A DNA stretch of 64,000 nt from Paramacrobiotus metropolitanus. Taxonomy: Eukaryota; Tardigrada; Eutardigrada; Parachela; Macrobiotidae. The translations under genes were made by a program, and so were the position numbers. Below, in pieces: positions 19,458 to 36,840 of this stretch; the first letter of the stretch is position 1, and each line of letters starts with the position of its first letter. The DNA lies in the NCBI RefSeq assembly GCF_019649055.1, contig NW_026570309.1, positions 310,001 to 374,000 of the forward strand. The letters are read 5' to 3'. Below the pieces are notes generated by a model that saw only the letters and a list, made by a program, of their open reading frames with translations, made no database searches and was not told the DNA's origin.

Positions 19458-20358
19458 GTGTTTGAAGAATCGCTCAGTTCAGCCTTCGCTCAGTTCAGCC
19501 TTCGTTACTTCACATATATGTGCAATGTGCGACGAACCGACGTTACGAATGCCTCGTCTACGCACTGGAATCCAACTAAAAAATTAATAATCATAATCGT
19601 AGAAGATGGCATTTACACAGTTCGACGCGGCATCCGTATTAACTGTAATCAGAGAGATGATAACTGTATCTTAATAATTCTTTCCGTCGGAGCACAGAAA
19701 CTGCGTCAGGGTTGTGCGTCAAAGACGAAAATCGTTTTCGTGGACATATGCCAGAAGGGTATACTACCGATTTCAGTGTTAATACAGAGAATGCAGGCTA
19801 TGGACATGTTCCAATTGGTATTACGCAGCTGCTGTACTCCTGATGAAAACATGACAGTCAGCCCACATGGCATGGAAGTGGCTTTGGCGGCCATACTGCC
19901 CGGGACAGATGGGATTCTACGCACAACCCTGACGAAATTTCTGTGCTCCGACGGAAAGAATTATGATGCCGACGTTACAACCCTGACGTTACGAATGCCG
20001 ACGTTACGAATGCTTCAAACGTGCGACAAACCGAAGTCTGTGGGGGCCTTCTACGTGAATCAAGTAGTTTTAACAGATCACAGAACGCTGCCGCTGACTG
20101 AATGATACTTTGTTCATTAGAAACGGACTCTGGAAAAGGCCCTATGGAATATGGAGCGACATGACATCAATGAACGGATCTTTGCAAATTGCACTTGAAC
20201 TGTGGTTTTTACGACGGACGAATAAGGCTATTAAATTGGATAAAACTGAGGTAACGCTGTCAGCGCTACCGATGCATATCATTACGGAAACCATCGGATT
20301 ACTCGCCAGCCTAAAGAAGTTGAAACTTCGCGTGTTTGTGGACTGTGGAAATATTTAG
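19458..20358 (+). pseudogene. Serpin-like fragment
   Basis: The stretch around 19790-19960 translates to MDMFQLVLRSCCTPDENMTV and SPHGMEVALAAILPGTDG. This matches the first helices of serpins (FxLxLxx...ENxxxSPxSIxxALxxxxxGAxG). Further on, SVGAFYVNQVVL could be the strand that normally reads ANALFVxxxxxL, but the frame is then closed by TGA at about 20103. The reactive-centre loop and the C-terminal PF motif are not found. Short repeats of GACGTTACGAATGC at 19538, 19985 and 19999 interrupt the region. It is most likely a decayed or truncated serpin. Certainty is modest, because only the N-terminal block is convincing. Confidence 0.35.
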
Positions 20359-20380
20359 TGGATACTACGATTGGCCAAGA

Positions 20381-20779: not shown

Positions 20780-20785
20780 CGGGTG

Positions 20786-20935
20786 TCGCGAGTGCACACT
20801 ATGTTATTGTGCAGAAGTGGAATTTTAATCAATTTTATTGCTGATTTTACTGCCATTGCACCATTTGTGGACCCGTTTATCCACGTAGAAGCGCATAAGG
20901 GGGACAGCATGGCGACAGGTTCTGGATTGAGTTTA
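20786..20935 (+). repeat. Long inverted repeat, left arm
   Basis: From about 20794 (GAGTGCACACTATG) for about 110 bp the sequence is identical to the reverse complement of about 24119-24010, after which identity falls away over the next 40 bp. The partner lies about 3.1 kb to the right, on the far side of the fusion gene and transposase exons. The geometry suggests either ends of a composite element or a duplicated, inverted piece of the same element. Confidence 0.8.
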
Positions 20936-21113
20936 TTGACGCAATAGCTGCAGACAGCGACCGATGAAGTACTGTAGTAAGAACTTAATTTAATACTTCT
21001 GTTGAAGTTAACTGAATTTTGAGGTGAATTTTGTACAGTTTTGTAAACTGCCGCAGTTGCAAAAGATCTGAGATGATTGTTAAAGTCAATTTGTACTTCA
21101 GCATTACATCATT

Positions 21114-22543
21114 ATGTGGCCAGCATTAGATCATTATGACACAGTGTCATTATCTCATGGCGTTTTCCAAGAGGAACACGGGTCGGTGCAGACTATGCAG
21201 TCCCCGTCGTTAAACAGTATTCCAGAGACTGAAGTTGAAGAGCACCTACTTGTTATGGAGACAACCTCTTTGGGCTATGCCACTGATGGTAAGTAGACTT
21301 ACAATTATGACGGTATTTATAGCAACAATACTTCTCGAGCATTCTAATAAATACTCGTAGGCTCGTACGTAACCAAATTACAATAGCATTCTGTACATTG
21401 TAAATGTTCGCTTTCTAAAACAGTCGGTCTGATTTATGTATTGCTACTCGTCATTCTAGCTATTGCAGATTAATTAAAATTTATCGCGCTCCTTGATGTA
21501 CACTACGATAAACGCTAGGAAAGCTATTTGCAGGGAAACAAGAGACCTGCTGTGCCGTTAGTTTGAAATCCCCATGCGCAATGAATTACGGCGTCCTTAC
21601 TTGCGATTTGTGCAGAAAATTTTTCAGGACAAACTGCAACAAGCTGGTGAGTGTATGGCTTTCATGCATTTATAACACTGTTGGTACCTGTCTTATTTAG
21701 AAACTGAAATGCAAAGGAAGAAAAGGCGACTGTGTGGTGCAAAATGTTTACCAGCCATGCAGTTCGTGTCGTATGAAGAAGTGTCGGGCACTTGGTATGG
21801 ACCTTTTGGCTAAACGAAAAGTACACCAACAACTGGACCGCGCTACCCTTGAATCGAGGCTCATCAGTTTGCGGAATCATCGAACTCCCAATGTTTATGT
21901 ACTGAAGGCTGTCAAGGCTGTTGTTCGCAAGTGCGAAAGTGCGGAGGACGTGAACAAACTACTTTACGCAGTGGAAAACGGAGAAGTGGAGGAGACAGAA
22001 TGTGTGCGGTTTCCACACAAGTCCATTAAGGTAACAAATAATATTTTTAATTCAGATGTTTTGAGTTTTACATTTATTTGTATTTAATTTTATTTTCGTT
22101 TCACATTTATGACTGTTTAGATCGACAAACATGAACATCTTAGTCATGTGCTTGTGGCTAAAGCGTTTCGCTGGAACCGAGTCAGTGAAGATAAAGTCGT
22201 TTCTTCGCACAGCTGCAAAGTCAATCCCGGATATGTGTGCATTAATCCGTACCATTACCGCAAGAAGAAGCAAGGACCAGCTGGAACTGTTTGCGTTGTT
22301 ACTAACTGCAACTTTTCTACAGTAATAAATCCCACTGTTGGATTTTTTCGACTGCCGGACAGAGAAAAAAGCAGAGAGCGGTATCTGAAATTTTTCTCCG
22401 CGTGTGCCCGACAAGATTTGGACAAATCGGGTTTCAGGAAGCATCACCGAATCTGCGGAAGGCACTTTTTGGAATCGGACTTTAAGTTTTTCTTTTGTTC
22501 TAATATCAGGGATAGCGACGGTCTATTCAGAGAAATTAACTAA
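21114..22543 (+). CDS. Fusion of nuclear-receptor-type zinc module, SMAD-type MH1 domain and THAP zinc finger
   Basis: Four exons (21114-21288, 21534-21646, 21701-22030, 22121-22543) join in frame to 346 aa, all with GT-AG introns. Residues about 64-125 resemble a nuclear-receptor DNA-binding domain: NYGVLTCDLCRKFFR, then CSSCRMKKCRALGM. The second Cys of finger 1 is Ser68, and finger 2 spacing is C-x6-C-x8-C-x2-C. Residues about 162-256 match SMAD MH1: VLKAVKAVVRKC, HVLVAKAFRW and VCINPYHY, with the zinc set C197, C238, C246, H251. Residues about 262-326 are a THAP domain: CVVTNC, GFFRLP and ICGRHFLESDF (C264, C269, C318, H321). Finger 2 and the MH1 start share one exon, and the MH1 end and THAP share another, so the fusion is read directly. 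A nuclear DNA-binding role is likely. No ligand-binding, MH2 or catalytic domain is seen. The stop at 22541 could instead be bypassed by splicing to the transposase exons, but no phase-matched donor was found. Confidence 0.75.
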
Positions 22544-22557
22544 TATTAAACTTTCAG

Positions 22558-23920
22558 GAAATGAAGCAAGCTTTGTCAGAGTTGCAGCCGTCTTCTAACA
22601 GGAGAAAATCTTTGCCAAAACCTACATGGACTGGTCTGCACGTTACGGTATACGGGTCCGAAGAAGTGGCCAGGCGACTTTTAAATTCAGGGTTCCAGTT
22701 TGTTCTCCCCGGTAAAATGACCAGTGACCCAATAGAGGTAATTAAAAACAAGAAAGCCAGTTTTTGTTTCATCTTGTCAAGACGGCTGTTTCAGTGTATA
22801 TGCATTTATTTATATATCATTATGTAATACGTATGTAATACTATGTATTTATTTATGTCTTATGTATTTATTCATGTCTCATTTTATCAGATTGCTGATT
22901 TGCAACTGTTTTTAATCTTGCAAAACTATTTTTGTTCGATTTTAATAGAGGCTGTTTTCGACATTTAAATACGGCTCCGGAAAGGTGACAGTTGGGAAAG
23001 TCAAAGAAGAAGTTAAAAGGATGGAAACACTGCAGCACCTTACGGGCACTACTAATGTTAGTCGAATGGGGCGCCAAAAGCGGAAAAATAATGAAGTAAA
23101 TTTTTCAACTTCCCCGCTGAAGAAAAAACGTAGGCTGGACCAGCCACTACGCACGGCGGCCTTTAATTTTGAAACAGAACTCAATTACTTGCGCTCGCTG
23201 GGAGATTTTTCTGTTCAGTCGCCGTGCGATATTTTTGGGGAGCTGCAGAATTTAAATGCTGAACTGTGGACTTCAGTTCAACTTGTCACACTAACCTTTG
23301 AAAATCCGGTCACACTAAGCAGTTCCAAGAAAGGTAGAAGAAATGCATAGTTTAGAAATATTGCTACTTATCTATAGTTATTGTTTTTGTATTTTTCAGA
23401 TCTTGTCACTACTGGGTTGACTGATCTATGAGGTTATATCGTTTCAAAAATTCAGAAAGGAAAATTTTCCTGCACCTCTTGCAAGGCCGGTATTGGCAAC
23501 ATGTTTGGAGTGATTTTTTCGGAGAGTGGCGGATTAGTCACGGCACGGTCGCGTACTGATTTTGGTGGTTTAAGCTTGCCTTGTCCGCAACTAAGCGCGC
23601 TTTTGCAGTATGCACTTGGATTTTTCGAAAAGTTGCAAGAGATTAATGATTTTTACAGAGGGGATCTACATTTGGAAAGAGCACTCAAGTTGACTCTGTT
23701 AAATATGGAATTACATAGCTTTCATCCGCTTGGTGATATTTGTTTATGCGATCTTACGAAATATTTAGAGTACGAATGTTTGAAGCGTTTTTATAATACT
23801 GCATTTAAAAATGATGTAAATGAGCGCCGAGCACTTGCTCTGAAGAGAACATACGGTGCTCGAAAAGCGGTACCGATGTCTACAGATCCCAGTAAGTTGA
23901 AAAAATTAAAGCAGAATTAA
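22558..23920 (+). pseudogene. P-element/THAP9-type transposase, C-terminal exons with an in-frame stop
   Basis: Three exons (22558-22737, 22949-23333, 23400-23920) join in phase. Across the first junction the protein reads FQFVLPGKMTSDPIE and then RLFSTFKYGSGK, matching the SDPIExxF block near the end of the RNase-H-like domain of P/THAP9 transposases. The third exon reads GYIVSKIQKGKFSCTSC and later SGGLV, the SGYxxxK...CxxC and GGL region that closes these proteins. A TGA at 23429-23431 stands where Ser is expected before GYIV. The catalytic N-terminal RNase-H part and GTP-binding insertion are absent between the THAP exon and this point, so it cannot be an active transposase. It may be a decayed element or the exapted tail of the fusion gene. 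The frame stays open for about 160 codons after the stop, which hints at recent decay or readthrough. Confidence 0.65.
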
Positions 23921-23974
23921 AACTTGATAGTTGGTAGAAAACTAGAAATACTGAAGTAGTGATTATTAATTCCA

Positions 23975-24127
23975 AACGCCAAGCGGGAAAGGCTAGTCGC
24001 GATGCTGTCCGCCTTGTGAGCGGCTACGTGGATAAACGGGTCCACAAATGGTGCAATGGCAGTAAAATCAGCAATAAAATTGATTAAAATTCCACTTCTG
24101 CACAATAACATAGTGTGCACTCGTGTC
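23975..24127 (-). repeat. Long inverted repeat, right arm
   Basis: This is the reverse-complement partner of 20786-20935. On the plus strand it reads, in one frame, VSGYVDKRVHKWC, which loosely resembles the SGYV...C motif of P-type transposases, so the arms might be copies of a transposase exon. The same stretch is also open on the minus strand, and I do not call either as coding. Confidence 0.75.
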
Positions 24128-25796
24128 GCTTGAGCCTGCAAAAAGATCAAAATTATCAGATGTCATTTATTTGGCAGGGCGAAGCACAGTGATGTTGTTA
24201 ACGCCATCGACTGAGCGGTTAGTACTGAAAGGTGCGCATCTTGACAGGAATAGCCGGACCCTCGCCTAATTTTTCGAATTGATACAATCAGCATGGAACG
24301 TGTCAGCGCAAAGACCGTCAAGGAAACTCACGGTTGTTCTTTACCAGTGCCACTGGAATATTGAAGGTGAACTGGCGGAGGAAGTCGAGATGCTGGATTC
24401 GGTTTGCTCCAGTCTGGTCTTGCTCTGTCAGGATCTGGTATGGATGGACTGGATATTCTCATTTGGCAAAGGTTACTTCGCTAATGAACCGCTATGGTTG
24501 GGGTCAGTGAATCCCAGTTCAGCAGACCGGAAAACGCAACTGTGCGGACTTTTGTATAAGACGTTGCCCGTTGTGTACCATTTGTGTACGCTGATTTGGC
24601 GATCAACATCGCATTAGAAAAGTAAGAATTACCTTATTCGCATTTAGATTGTTCTTTCGGATGCTTAACATTTAAGACCTAAACCTGAATATTGTCAGAT
24701 AAAATATCAATCAGATAGTACTTCAGCTTATGACTATCGGTTATTACTTGTAGGTATTATTTTTAGGCGTACTGAACTAGCTCACTTTTAAAGTGTTAAT
24801 CACACTAAATAAATTATTTGTGCTATGCTATGTTATTACACTACTACAGGCTTGTTTGAGTGTTACACCTTGTAGACACGATTTAGTGTTTCTGCACCTT
24901 GATGGTTCTCACTTTTACCACAGGTTCTGTGGTCGTGTCAAGGAAATGATCCGCGCCAGACCCCTAAGACCAGCGACTTCTGGTACTATTGCCTGGACGA
25001 AAGACGAACTGGACACACTAGACGTTACGACATTAAGCAGGCTCACGCTCTGCGCACTTAGTCGCCAGATGATTGCAAGTAAAGCGGAGTTCAATATGCT
25101 GGGACCAGAATACGATGTCACGGAATTATTCCGGTCAGAATGAGCGCCCAATCAATCGAAGAAGTTTTTTGGTTATCGTTGTCCGAGAAAATACCCCATT
25201 TTGCGTTTCATTTTGTTGGAGATCTTGTGATAATTAATTATAATGCGATATGTATAGAAATACTTACTGGTAATCGCACTCGGTAATGGTTAGACATTGT
25301 CCTGCTTTATTCCATCATTACTTACAGGATTTGCTCGTTTAATTAGGCAGTTTAATTTGTATGGAAGTATGCATCTGCGACACAAGCTACCGAGTAGCCG
25401 GACAAGCGGAGCATTGCGATAAACGCAGTATTCGAACTCGTTTTGGTTTGGGTTTTTTCGGTCCCGGCAGAAAAAGAAAAATCTTCGTCATTGAAAAGGA
25501 AAAAATATTTTTTGTCTCTTACTGAAATTTTGTCATCGGGTTTTGGCACAGTACGCTCATAAATCTGTATAGCGCTCTTCCTGCGATCACTGGGCAAAAC
25601 ATCTTCGTACTTCCTGTTCACCAACGAAATCAAGGAAAACTTAGTGCGGACAGCCAATAGATAGCTTACGGAACTGTTTTATCCTTGCCTCTTTCAAATT
25701 TTTCTAATTTTAGCTGAAAAACCCGATCGTGTGCACCAGGCTTGGCGAAAATCATTCAGATTGATTAGTTTGTTTCTTTTAATTTATTAATTATTA
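24128..25796. other. Unassigned open frames, no recognised gene
   Basis: Frames at 24279-24617 and 24793-25143 (plus) and 25352-25657 (minus) are 100-116 codons long and somewhat hydrophobic or basic, but show no family motif that I can name. The minus-strand one could be a 3' exon of the neighbouring GPCR. They are listed for completeness. Confidence 0.25.
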
Positions 25797-33225: not shown

Positions 33226-33330
33226 ATGGACGCCAGCAAAGATCAGTCAAAGCTCAAAAAGCAGCACACCGCTCCACCGGATCCGGATCAGTTGGTGATG
33301 TGGGACGTTGCAGGTTTTCCTGAGTAGAAT

Positions 33331-35599
33331 ATGGGACGTACATTGCCTATACCGGTTACGTGTGAGGTGTGCGGGGATCGGAGCTTTGGCCGACACTATG
33401 GTATGACCTTTAAAAACTTCTGTTAGTTTCAATTTTATGCATTTAATCAGTTTTGTGTCTGATATAAAATTTAGCGTTATAATCCAGAGACTGTATTTCT
33501 CGTGCTGCGTATTTTGTTAAACAATAATTCTAAAAATACTGTTTCTAAATTCTGATTGTGAATTCTAAAACTATTTATTTGGATCAGTTGCTGATGCGCA
33601 CGGAATTCATTGTCGATAAATTCTGTGTCATTTGATTAGGTGTTTACTGTTGCGATGGATGCAGCTGCTTCTTCAAGCGCAGCATTCGCCGGCGCATTTC
33701 GTACAGTTGTATTTGTAAGTATAAGTACAAGAAACTGTTTGTTGGAGATTTTTATTATTGGAAATTTAATTTTGCGCGTATAATAATCTTATATAAGTGT
33801 ATTTGGCATTTTATGTTACATATATAGAGCAACGCTACATATAAAATAGAGCAGTATAATAACGCCGTACTAATTAAGGAGCATGAGGCCAACTTGCCAT
33901 TCACTTTGCAACTGTACCATATACCGCAATATACTTAACCGCGCAGCAGTAATTACTTATCGTTAATAACGTACTGATGTATATACAACTTTACAGCTGG
34001 CAGTAATAACTGCGTTATCGACAAAGCCAGGAGGAATTGGTGTCCCGCGTGCCGGCTGCAGAAGTGTTTTGACGTTAACATGAATAAAAACGGTAGGTAA
34101 TGTTTCCTGTATAATTAAATTTATCGTGTTAATCTACCGCAAGGAAATTTAATCGGTTGCCGCGTAGTATGAAACACGTTTCTATAATGTTCTCATTCGT
34201 TACCGAACTCTCTAGCTTTTGTCCTGATGATATAGCTGTGCAAGATGAACGAGGTCCGAGAAAAACTTTGGCAAAAACCAAACGACCCGCTCCCTCTGCA
34301 GAGACCGAAGACCTTTCCTCTGCTACCACAGCCAGTACTACAGCAACGACGTCACGGATGCTGCCGGGTTATTCAATCACTGATTTGTCGATTAATTCGG
34401 ATATCCGAATTTCAAGCCCTACACTCAACGGAAGACTGCTGATCCGTCAGGAACACAGCGCATTTGCTGGGGTTATCCCATACAATAAAGGTATTTTGAT
34501 GAACTCGATGCTTGTTTTTTATATTGGTTATCCTTGTTTTATTACGTAAGAAATTAGTAAGTTGTTGATTACGTAATGCTGTTACGATCGATAAGGTTAT
34601 TCGCGTCATGAACAAAGTAATTTATTGCTTATAAATAATATAACTCTGCGACCCTCATACATCATACGCTGTTAACCATGATATATTGACAGAAAATAAA
34701 GCGCATTTTTCATTTACTGTTTGCTTCGACAATACATGTATATAAAATAACAATAATTAATCTTCTTTTGGGCATTATATCAATAATTATTATATTTATG
34801 TGGATGACTGCGTCACTAACATTGAACGTCGTATGATTGCAGAAGACATAACCGCCAGTCGCATTCCCTTGCTGCTCTGCATGCAGCAGTTCCGACTGAT
34901 GTTGTGGGAGCGTATTCAGCGCACGGAATTTATGCACCTGATTTTGACCAGCGATCAAAAAGCAACCATTGACAAGGTCCTGTCATCGATCTGGCCGGGA
35001 CTTTTTCTGCTGCATATCTCACACGGACCGTGGATGGAAACTACTTGTTCCGCTTTATGGAACCGGGTAAGATGAAAAAATTATACCTGCAATCACTACT
35101 GTAGAATGCGTGGAAGTGTGGAAGCAAACTTCACATTAACTTCAACGGGCATGCCTTACTCGTTTATGGCTTATTTCATAAAGGCCTTTGTACTACGCTT
35201 CTCCTCATAATGTTGATCGAACAGTGACATTTTTCAACATTTATGTACAGAGAAGTTCAGGTTTCTTCTCTTCAGGGCGGCAGCGAGAGCAACGCGATGG
35301 TCAAACTGCTTATGCGCTGTCGTGACACGCAGTTGGATGCATCGGAATTCGCCGTCCTGGAGAGTCTGATTGTGGTGCAGAGCCTGCAGAACATTCGCCT
35401 GAGTCCCTTCTTGATGGAACTACAGGAACGCCTACACGGTTATCTGTGGGCGCACTGCAGTATGACCCAGCCGACGGCACCGACCCTGCGCTTTGCAAAA
35501 TTCCAGATGCTGACCAATCAACTGCGTCGCATCAAACCCGAACAGGTTCAACAGGAAATCGGCTCCCTGACCTTTACACCCCCGGCACCGCTGTCCTAG
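33331..35599 (+). CDS. Nuclear receptor, NR2E-like (PNR / DHR83 / FAX-1 type)
   Basis: Six exons (33331-33400, 33640-33714, 33997-34092, 34236-34490, 34843-35066, 35276-35599) join in frame to 347 aa. The DNA-binding domain is complete: [14 protein letters not shown], then [18 protein letters not shown], then [20 protein letters not shown], with all eight zinc Cys. The P-box CDGCSCFFK and the T/A-box [11 protein letters not shown] are typical of the NR2E group containing PNR, DHR83 and FAX-1. A Ser/Thr-rich hinge follows. The ligand-binding region ([26 protein letters not shown], then a helical C-terminal exon) is divergent and short. The protein should bind DNA half-sites in the nucleus and regulate transcription. 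The start ATG lies only 10 codons before the first Cys; an upstream frame from 33226 ends in TAG just before it, so a longer 5' exon cannot be excluded. Confidence 0.85.
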
Positions 35600-36840
35600 T
35601 AGCAGTGGCTTTAGTACAGTAGAATAATTTCTCGTATGTTTATGGAATGGTTTTTTTGGCAAGCGCTAGTCAACATGCTAGCCAATCGCAGTAGCTAGAG
35701 GGTATCAATGAAAAAGGTCGAGCGTGTAGGTCAGGTTTTTTGAACGGTATACTGGAGAAAACTAGGCAGTAATTTGGCTCTTATTGTTTTCTGCTTTCTG
35801 TGGTTGCTGTTCAGATATTCACGCGGACTGAAAATAAGAAATAACGAACTCTAGACAAACAAATGCTTGCAGTTTATATTTCTGTTCGTAACAGCTTTAT
35901 TACGCTTAATATATAAACAACTTATATCAAGAATTTATATCGACATATTACATCAAAAATTATCAACAACATGAACACACGTAAGCTGTCAGATACAGTT
36001 GTTATTATTATACGAAGGCTGTATAATATAATTGAATAATATCTATGCGTGCTACCGAACGAAAAAGGGCATAGCTTGTCTTGGGGACATCAGTTTACTC
36101 TTAACGGATCACTGACGTTGAACGTAACAAATCGAAAACTTAAAATAAAATTTAAAAAATTTATTCCCGTATGTGGTGGCCGAAGTGTCCTTGTAATTTA
36201 TCATTACGTACTTGTATGTACTTGTGCATGTATCTGAATATGCATTATACAGATTGCACTGAGTATGTACACTGAATATCTATATTGTACAATGAATATC
36301 TATATAATACGTGCACTGCCAAATGCACGGCGTTGTGCATTTTACTTGTATTATTATCAAGTGTACACCGATTTATCGGACAGAGCAGGAAATCCAAACA
36401 CATAATATCTATTTAGAATTCGTGCCATGCCCGATAAATTTTCACAACTGGTAACATAATCTTTGATTAAGCATCAGAATTTTTAGATGAATGTCAATAC
36501 AGACGTAAAATGGTCCCGGTATTACTGCAGTATGTATTTAAATGCACATCAAAGAGCGATGCCGTTGTCTGACACGGCTGTTGTTACTTGAATATTCATA
36601 TAGATATGGCATTTCTGAACACTGCACATCCTCCAGTTGATGGAAAAAAATACTAAAGCGTCCAGTCATCTATGTAACTGCTTGTTCAGCTTGAGTGCTT
36701 TTAAAAGTTCTTACACCTATCGAAAACGATCAGTGTAACAAATTGCTGCACCTCAACAAACCACCGTTCATTTTGGATCCGGTCAGCCGAACTAAATACA
36801 AATAATCCAGATAGTAACACTGTTACAGTAAGCAGCACCA
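35600..36840. other. Intergenic, nothing recognised
   Basis: AT-rich sequence with no supported exon. It separates the nuclear receptor from the GPCR cluster. Confidence 0.45.

Follow-up and report, generated by a model that had tools for sequence, protein, structure and literature searches.

What kind of gene carries three unrelated types of DNA-binding domain in a single reading frame? Such a frame was found in the window, a 64,000-nucleotide stretch of a tardigrade genome (C89:310001–374000), where positions 21114–22543 encode one nuclear receptor-type zinc module (zf-C4), one SMAD-type MH1 domain and one THAP domain. The original prediction read the locus as a new transcription factor built by exon capture, possibly by a P-like transposon. 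The genome searched in this study is 169.8 Mb in size; it holds about 20 matches to CAHS, a protein specific to tardigrades (best match 65% identical, E 3e-69), which identifies the organism as a tardigrade.

The coding region is split into four exons, all on the forward strand; splicing throughout was predicted from the GT..AG borders and the frame. The putative exon 1 (21114–21288) encodes an acidic N-terminus, its start codon is uncertain; the frame is open and ends at a GTAAGT donor, and it is disrupted in the copy on C99. Exon 2 (21534–21646), compared with the copies on C99, C20, C1 and C2, encodes the first zinc finger of the zf-C4 domain. Exon 3 (21701–22030), supported by Pfam, the genome search and its splice sites, encodes the second zinc finger and, after it, the N-terminal half of MH1. 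Exon 4 (22121–22486), supported by Pfam and its splice sites, encodes the remaining, C-terminal half of MH1 and then the beginning of THAP. The intron between exons 3 and 4 is GT..AG, 90 nt in length and of phase 0, and both domain joins are located inside exons. As predicted, 21701–22030 and 22121–22543 are open and in frame, each bridging one domain boundary; MH1 keeps all four of its zinc ligands and THAP keeps its C2CH set.

Scanned exon by exon with Pfam, the window copy gave E-values of 2.4e-8 for THAP and 2.3e-6 for MH1; the zf-C4 halves scored 0.0011 (exon 2) and 0.016, each below the cut-off. The genome profile search matched MH1 across the intron at 21905–22264 (E 3.8e-8). AlphaFold2 modeling of exons 3–4, from a single sequence with the intron read through, was uninformative (pLDDT 34). 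In three spliced sister copies, all three domains are over the Pfam cut-offs, with values of 7.6e-15 (C20), 1.4e-14 and 4.9e-10 for zf-C4, 7.4e-13, 5.2e-13 and 2.1e-12 for MH1, and 1.2e-8, 3.1e-8 and 5.2e-7 for THAP. Chance can thus be excluded for the triple fusion, which is confirmed. In the window copy, the second Cys of the first finger of the zinc module is replaced by Ser (CAVS); the copies on C99, C2, C20 and C1 all have CAVC.

The frame lies within one DNA transposon (20790–24122), whose terminal inverted repeats are 127 bp long and whose target-site duplication (TSD) is 7 bp. The left repeat (20790–20916, forward strand; GAGTGCACACTATG...) is 127–128 nt in length and 95% complementary to the right repeat (23996–24122, reverse strand), with which it pairs; both were aligned with the copies on C99 and C2. 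The TSD reads GTGTCGC at 20783–20789 and is identical at 24123–24129. Other insertions have 7-bp duplications of their own (CTGTAAC for C99, GTTACAT for C2 and ATATTAC for C29), as do three MITEs (ACAGTAC, GTACTAC and GCCCGAC); at the C20 insertion, 6 of the 7 duplication positions match. The element shares the outermost ∼86 bp of its repeats with ∼30 short MITE-like loci. The differences between the left and right repeats are common to all three copies, so the divergence of the terminal repeats is useless for dating. The TSD length speaks against a P-type element in that P elements have 8-bp TSDs (PMC7776569), though Galileo has 7-bp ones (PMC4168063). Two neighborhoods were seen in passing. 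Just 5′ of the element, the window contains what looks by eye like a serpin fragment (19674–20360; ENMTVSPHGMEVALAAILPGTDG), with a 46-nt inverted repeat. At L040 (C12:852454–855696), two THAP domains adjoin a relative (83%) of the window element's terminal repeat.

The copy on C99 is 5.3 kb in length; it is 97% identical to the window copy and about 2 kb longer. The extra ∼2 kb encodes the remainder of THAP and a P-type RNase H region. Spliced in silico, C99 gives a protein of 847 residues, in which Pfam matched zf-C4 (residues 2–68, 9.6e-9), MH1 (residues 103–191, 2.7e-12), THAP (residues 202–282, 5.8e-11) and TNP-like RNaseH_N (residues 537–659, 2.2e-8), all over the cut-offs. One intron splits the THAP domain of C99; the second half, with an ALPT motif equivalent to AVPT, shares its exon with the RNase H region. 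The DNA-binding and catalytic parts are therefore one protein, and no captured passenger gene is involved. The RNase H-like domain PF21787 was matched in all four members (3.6e-13 in C20), and the Tnp_P_element HTH (PF12017) gave at best 8.9e-5 in three of the four; in C370, its score of 22.5 bits is just short of the Pfam cut-off, 23. The transposase alignment contains two invariant Asp residues as catalytic candidates, in ISDQT/ICDVT and SDNGAEN/SDHGAEN, and the third acid of the D-D-E triad was not located in it. Pfam gave no match for a GTP-binding insertion domain in the C-terminal 493 residues, for MH2 in the 847- or 493-residue proteins, or for a nuclear-receptor ligand-binding domain in the C99 protein. 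No P transposase was among the PDB matches of the RNase H alignment profile, and among the family copies in the genome, no wholly undamaged one was demonstrated.

Alignment with C99 (393345/395328) places the breakpoint of one ∼1982-bp internal deletion at 22483–22486 of the window (forward strand), with TAA microhomology. This deletion took out what remained of THAP together with the putative HTH and the RNase H core. Past the breakpoint, the window frame continues into a stop codon at 22541–22543; C99 continues at the point at which, in the window copy, 22486 abuts later sequence, so the stop at 22543, where the original prediction ended its last exon, is a scar of the deletion and not a natural C-terminus. 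Three remnant transposase exons follow on the forward strand, 22559–22737 (EMKQALSEL...PIE) and 22949–23333 (FSTFKYGSGKVTVGKVKEEV...), both conserved in C99 and C20, and the C-terminal 23400–23920 (GYIVSKIQKGKFSCTSCK...). The last one contains a premature TGA near 23430, where C99 and C20 are open; this further stop indicates that the window copy has decayed. The Pfam scan of the post-deletion exons of the window copy gave no match. The window copy is thus an internally deleted, decayed and non-autonomous transposon copy rather than the new transcription factor first proposed, and in its full-length relative the three domains form the N-terminus of a transposase. Its product is at most a DNA-binding fragment, unable to catalyse transposition.

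The same architecture occurs at independent sites. C20 and C29 are separate insertions with different flanks; they are 99% identical to each other and have identical 94-bp repeats, indicating that they inserted recently. Together with C1:2056056, they have the same domain order as the window copy and share roughly 54–68% amino-acid identity with it. Estimated by the Nei-Gojobori method on these short segments, dN/dS between C20 and C1 is 0.22 and 0.27 for the two zinc-finger segments (zf1 and zf2), 0.19 and 0.17 for the two MH1 segments (MH1a and MH1b), and 0.21 for THAP. All the DNA-binding segments are under purifying selection by this measure (dN/dS 0.17–0.27); the values are similar, so the added domains are as constrained as THAP.

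Subfamily B (C370, C5, C155, C17 and C21) possesses MH1 and THAP, and its two long frames continue with HTH-like and RNase H regions. In the genome-wide zf-C4 search, which did match the C1 and C20 elements, zf-C4 was absent at the subfamily B loci. Canonical P-type elements are also present in the genome (e.g. C8:1793817, with an 842-residue frame), and they have THAP directly at the start. In the catalytic-domain tree, which is unrooted and has long branches, the MH1-bearing transposases stand apart from the canonical P-type elements. The simplest order of gain that we infer would be THAP alone, then MH1, and then zf-C4 in one branch. As a separate observation, THAP matches are densely clustered at C17:1200000–1410000, where open frames of up to 1310 residues carry many tandem THAP domains.

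The introns of the added domains bear on their source. The MH1 profile of the elements best matched SMAD4 structures (8.8e-20), and R-SMADs scored 5e-16 or weaker. In the elements checked, representing all subfamilies, MH1 is interrupted by a phase 0 intron exactly 8 residues before the conserved His of xHV. The host SMAD4-like gene has its MH1 intron at the same position and in the same phase (between LQ and VAGKKVFPHV); in the host R-SMADs it is elsewhere. The MH1 and THAP trees are too short for the donor gene to be identified, and the SMAD donor is unresolved in the MH1 tree. The zf-C4 profile of the elements matches nuclear receptors. Its phase 0 intron is located three residues before Cys5, the same as in L077, one HR96/DAF-12-like host receptor (between FFRRNALGGK and EFKC); in the other host receptors inspected, the zf-C4 intron is mostly elsewhere or absent. 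L077 is the top-scoring receptor for C99 and the second for C20, and L072 has the highest similarity score for C20 and C1, so the scores do not single out one donor receptor. The introns common to the elements and the host genes suggest that genomic DNA, and not a processed copy, was captured. Together with the terminal repeats and TSDs, they support the proposed capture of host DNA-binding exons by a P-like transposon. The P-boxes and the MH1 hairpin of the elements differ from the host versions. The window itself harbors one host nuclear-receptor gene of several exons at 33330–35600, possibly NR2E/tailless-like by eye; its DNA-binding domain introns differ from those of the element, and its proximity looks coincidental.

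MH1 and THAP also occur together in host-like genes. At C12:1816662 (L042), C12:1829421 (L041) and C166:70387 (L043), an MH1 domain with the same intron is followed by THAP further downstream; no transposase was seen at these three loci, and at C166:70387 C2H2 fingers follow MH1 and THAP. The host-like MH1 domains form one clade with the transposon MH1 (100/99), in a tree that is too short to fix the origin of these genes. Their THAP differs from the element THAP and is further from MH1. They may be donors of the element domains, derivatives of the elements or parallel fusions.

Taken together, these observations make it very probable that 20790–24122 is a deleted copy of a P-superfamily element, whose full-length kin encode a transposase of zf-C4, MH1, THAP and RNase H with captured host exons. 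An ancestral THAP-only P transposase would first have taken up genomic exons of a SMAD4-like gene; exons of a nuclear-receptor gene would have been captured later, in one branch. In P transposases, THAP binds internal sites near the ends, and DNA cutting and joining are carried out by the RNase H domain (PMC7776569), and the THAP of Galileo binds several sites within long repeats (PMC3688188). In the tardigrade element, MH1 and zf-C4 would probably make further contacts along the long terminal repeats, so that the transposon ends are recognised by a composite of these modules and THAP; judging from the altered P-boxes and MH1 hairpin, their DNA specificity may have been retuned. A bolder version, which we consider possible but doubtful, is that the P-type lineage acts as a shuttle for the DNA-binding exons of transcription factors, that the captured SMAD4 and receptor exons were selected as a composite end-recognition module, and that the lineage spawned the MH1+THAP genes on C12 and C166.

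The order of events might also have been reversed. A host transcription factor with zf-C4, MH1 and THAP, or with MH1 and THAP, could have come first and been taken over whole by a P-type transposon, or the window copy could have been domesticated as a transcription factor or repressor. The three transposase-free host-like genes with MH1 in the transposon clade, and the open DNA-binding region that the window copy retains, speak for this. However, zf-C4 plus MH1 occurs only within elements, and the host-like genes carry another THAP, more distant from MH1. The window copy has lost one zinc ligand and carries the deletion scar and the further stop, and the 38 codons of its exon 2 differ from C99 by 4 amino-acid changes and 0 silent ones. 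We therefore consider takeover or domestication unlikely.

It is far less probable still that neighboring genes or nested insertions produced a chimeric frame, with the domains never together in one protein. Although splicing is predicted only, domain order, joins and the position and phase of the introns all recur at independent insertions with different TSDs, which share 62–65% amino-acid identity and are under purifying selection, and the zf-C4/MH1, MH1/THAP and THAP/RNase H joins are all within exons. The original prediction is partly supported, with its observation confirmed, and capture by the transposase remains the preferred reading.

If so, DNA-binding domains of host transcription factors appear to have moved into a transposase at least twice and then to have been kept under selection. 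The direction proposed here is opposite to the well-documented one, in which transposases give rise to host genes (THAP9, SETMAR and others). With this family, it can be tested how the end recognition of a transposase changes, and the family would offer a tangible way for transcription factors with novel sets of DNA-binding domains to arise.

We found no published description of a zf-C4/MH1/THAP transposase architecture in the open-access literature. Like the P-element superfamily (Drosophila P, Galileo and 1360/Hoppel; THAP9 and its fish transposons), the tardigrade element has THAP, a candidate HTH-like segment, PF21787, inverted repeats, internally deleted copies and MITEs, and its 7-bp TSD is as in Galileo. 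Different from them, it has zf-C4 and MH1 before THAP and 127-bp repeats, and the GTP-binding domain and the third catalytic acid are unrecognised in it. Its MH1 resembles that of SMAD4 in all four zinc ligands, the best profile match and the intron position and phase; however, it has a short, altered DNA-binding hairpin (no DGRLQV), it is part of a transposase and no MH2 follows. Like HR96/DAF-12 (NR1J)-like receptors, the element has a pair of C4 zinc modules, spaced in the standard way in C20, and the intron as in host L077, but its P-boxes (DSCRK, VPCKL and IPCKS) are non-standard and it is without the ligand-binding domain. The closest counterpart of the window copy itself is the KP element, which acts as a repressor in Drosophila. 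Both are internally deleted P-type copies that retain the DNA-binding part; by analogy with KP, the truncated window product is a possible DNA-binding repressor, which could in principle compete for the transposon ends.
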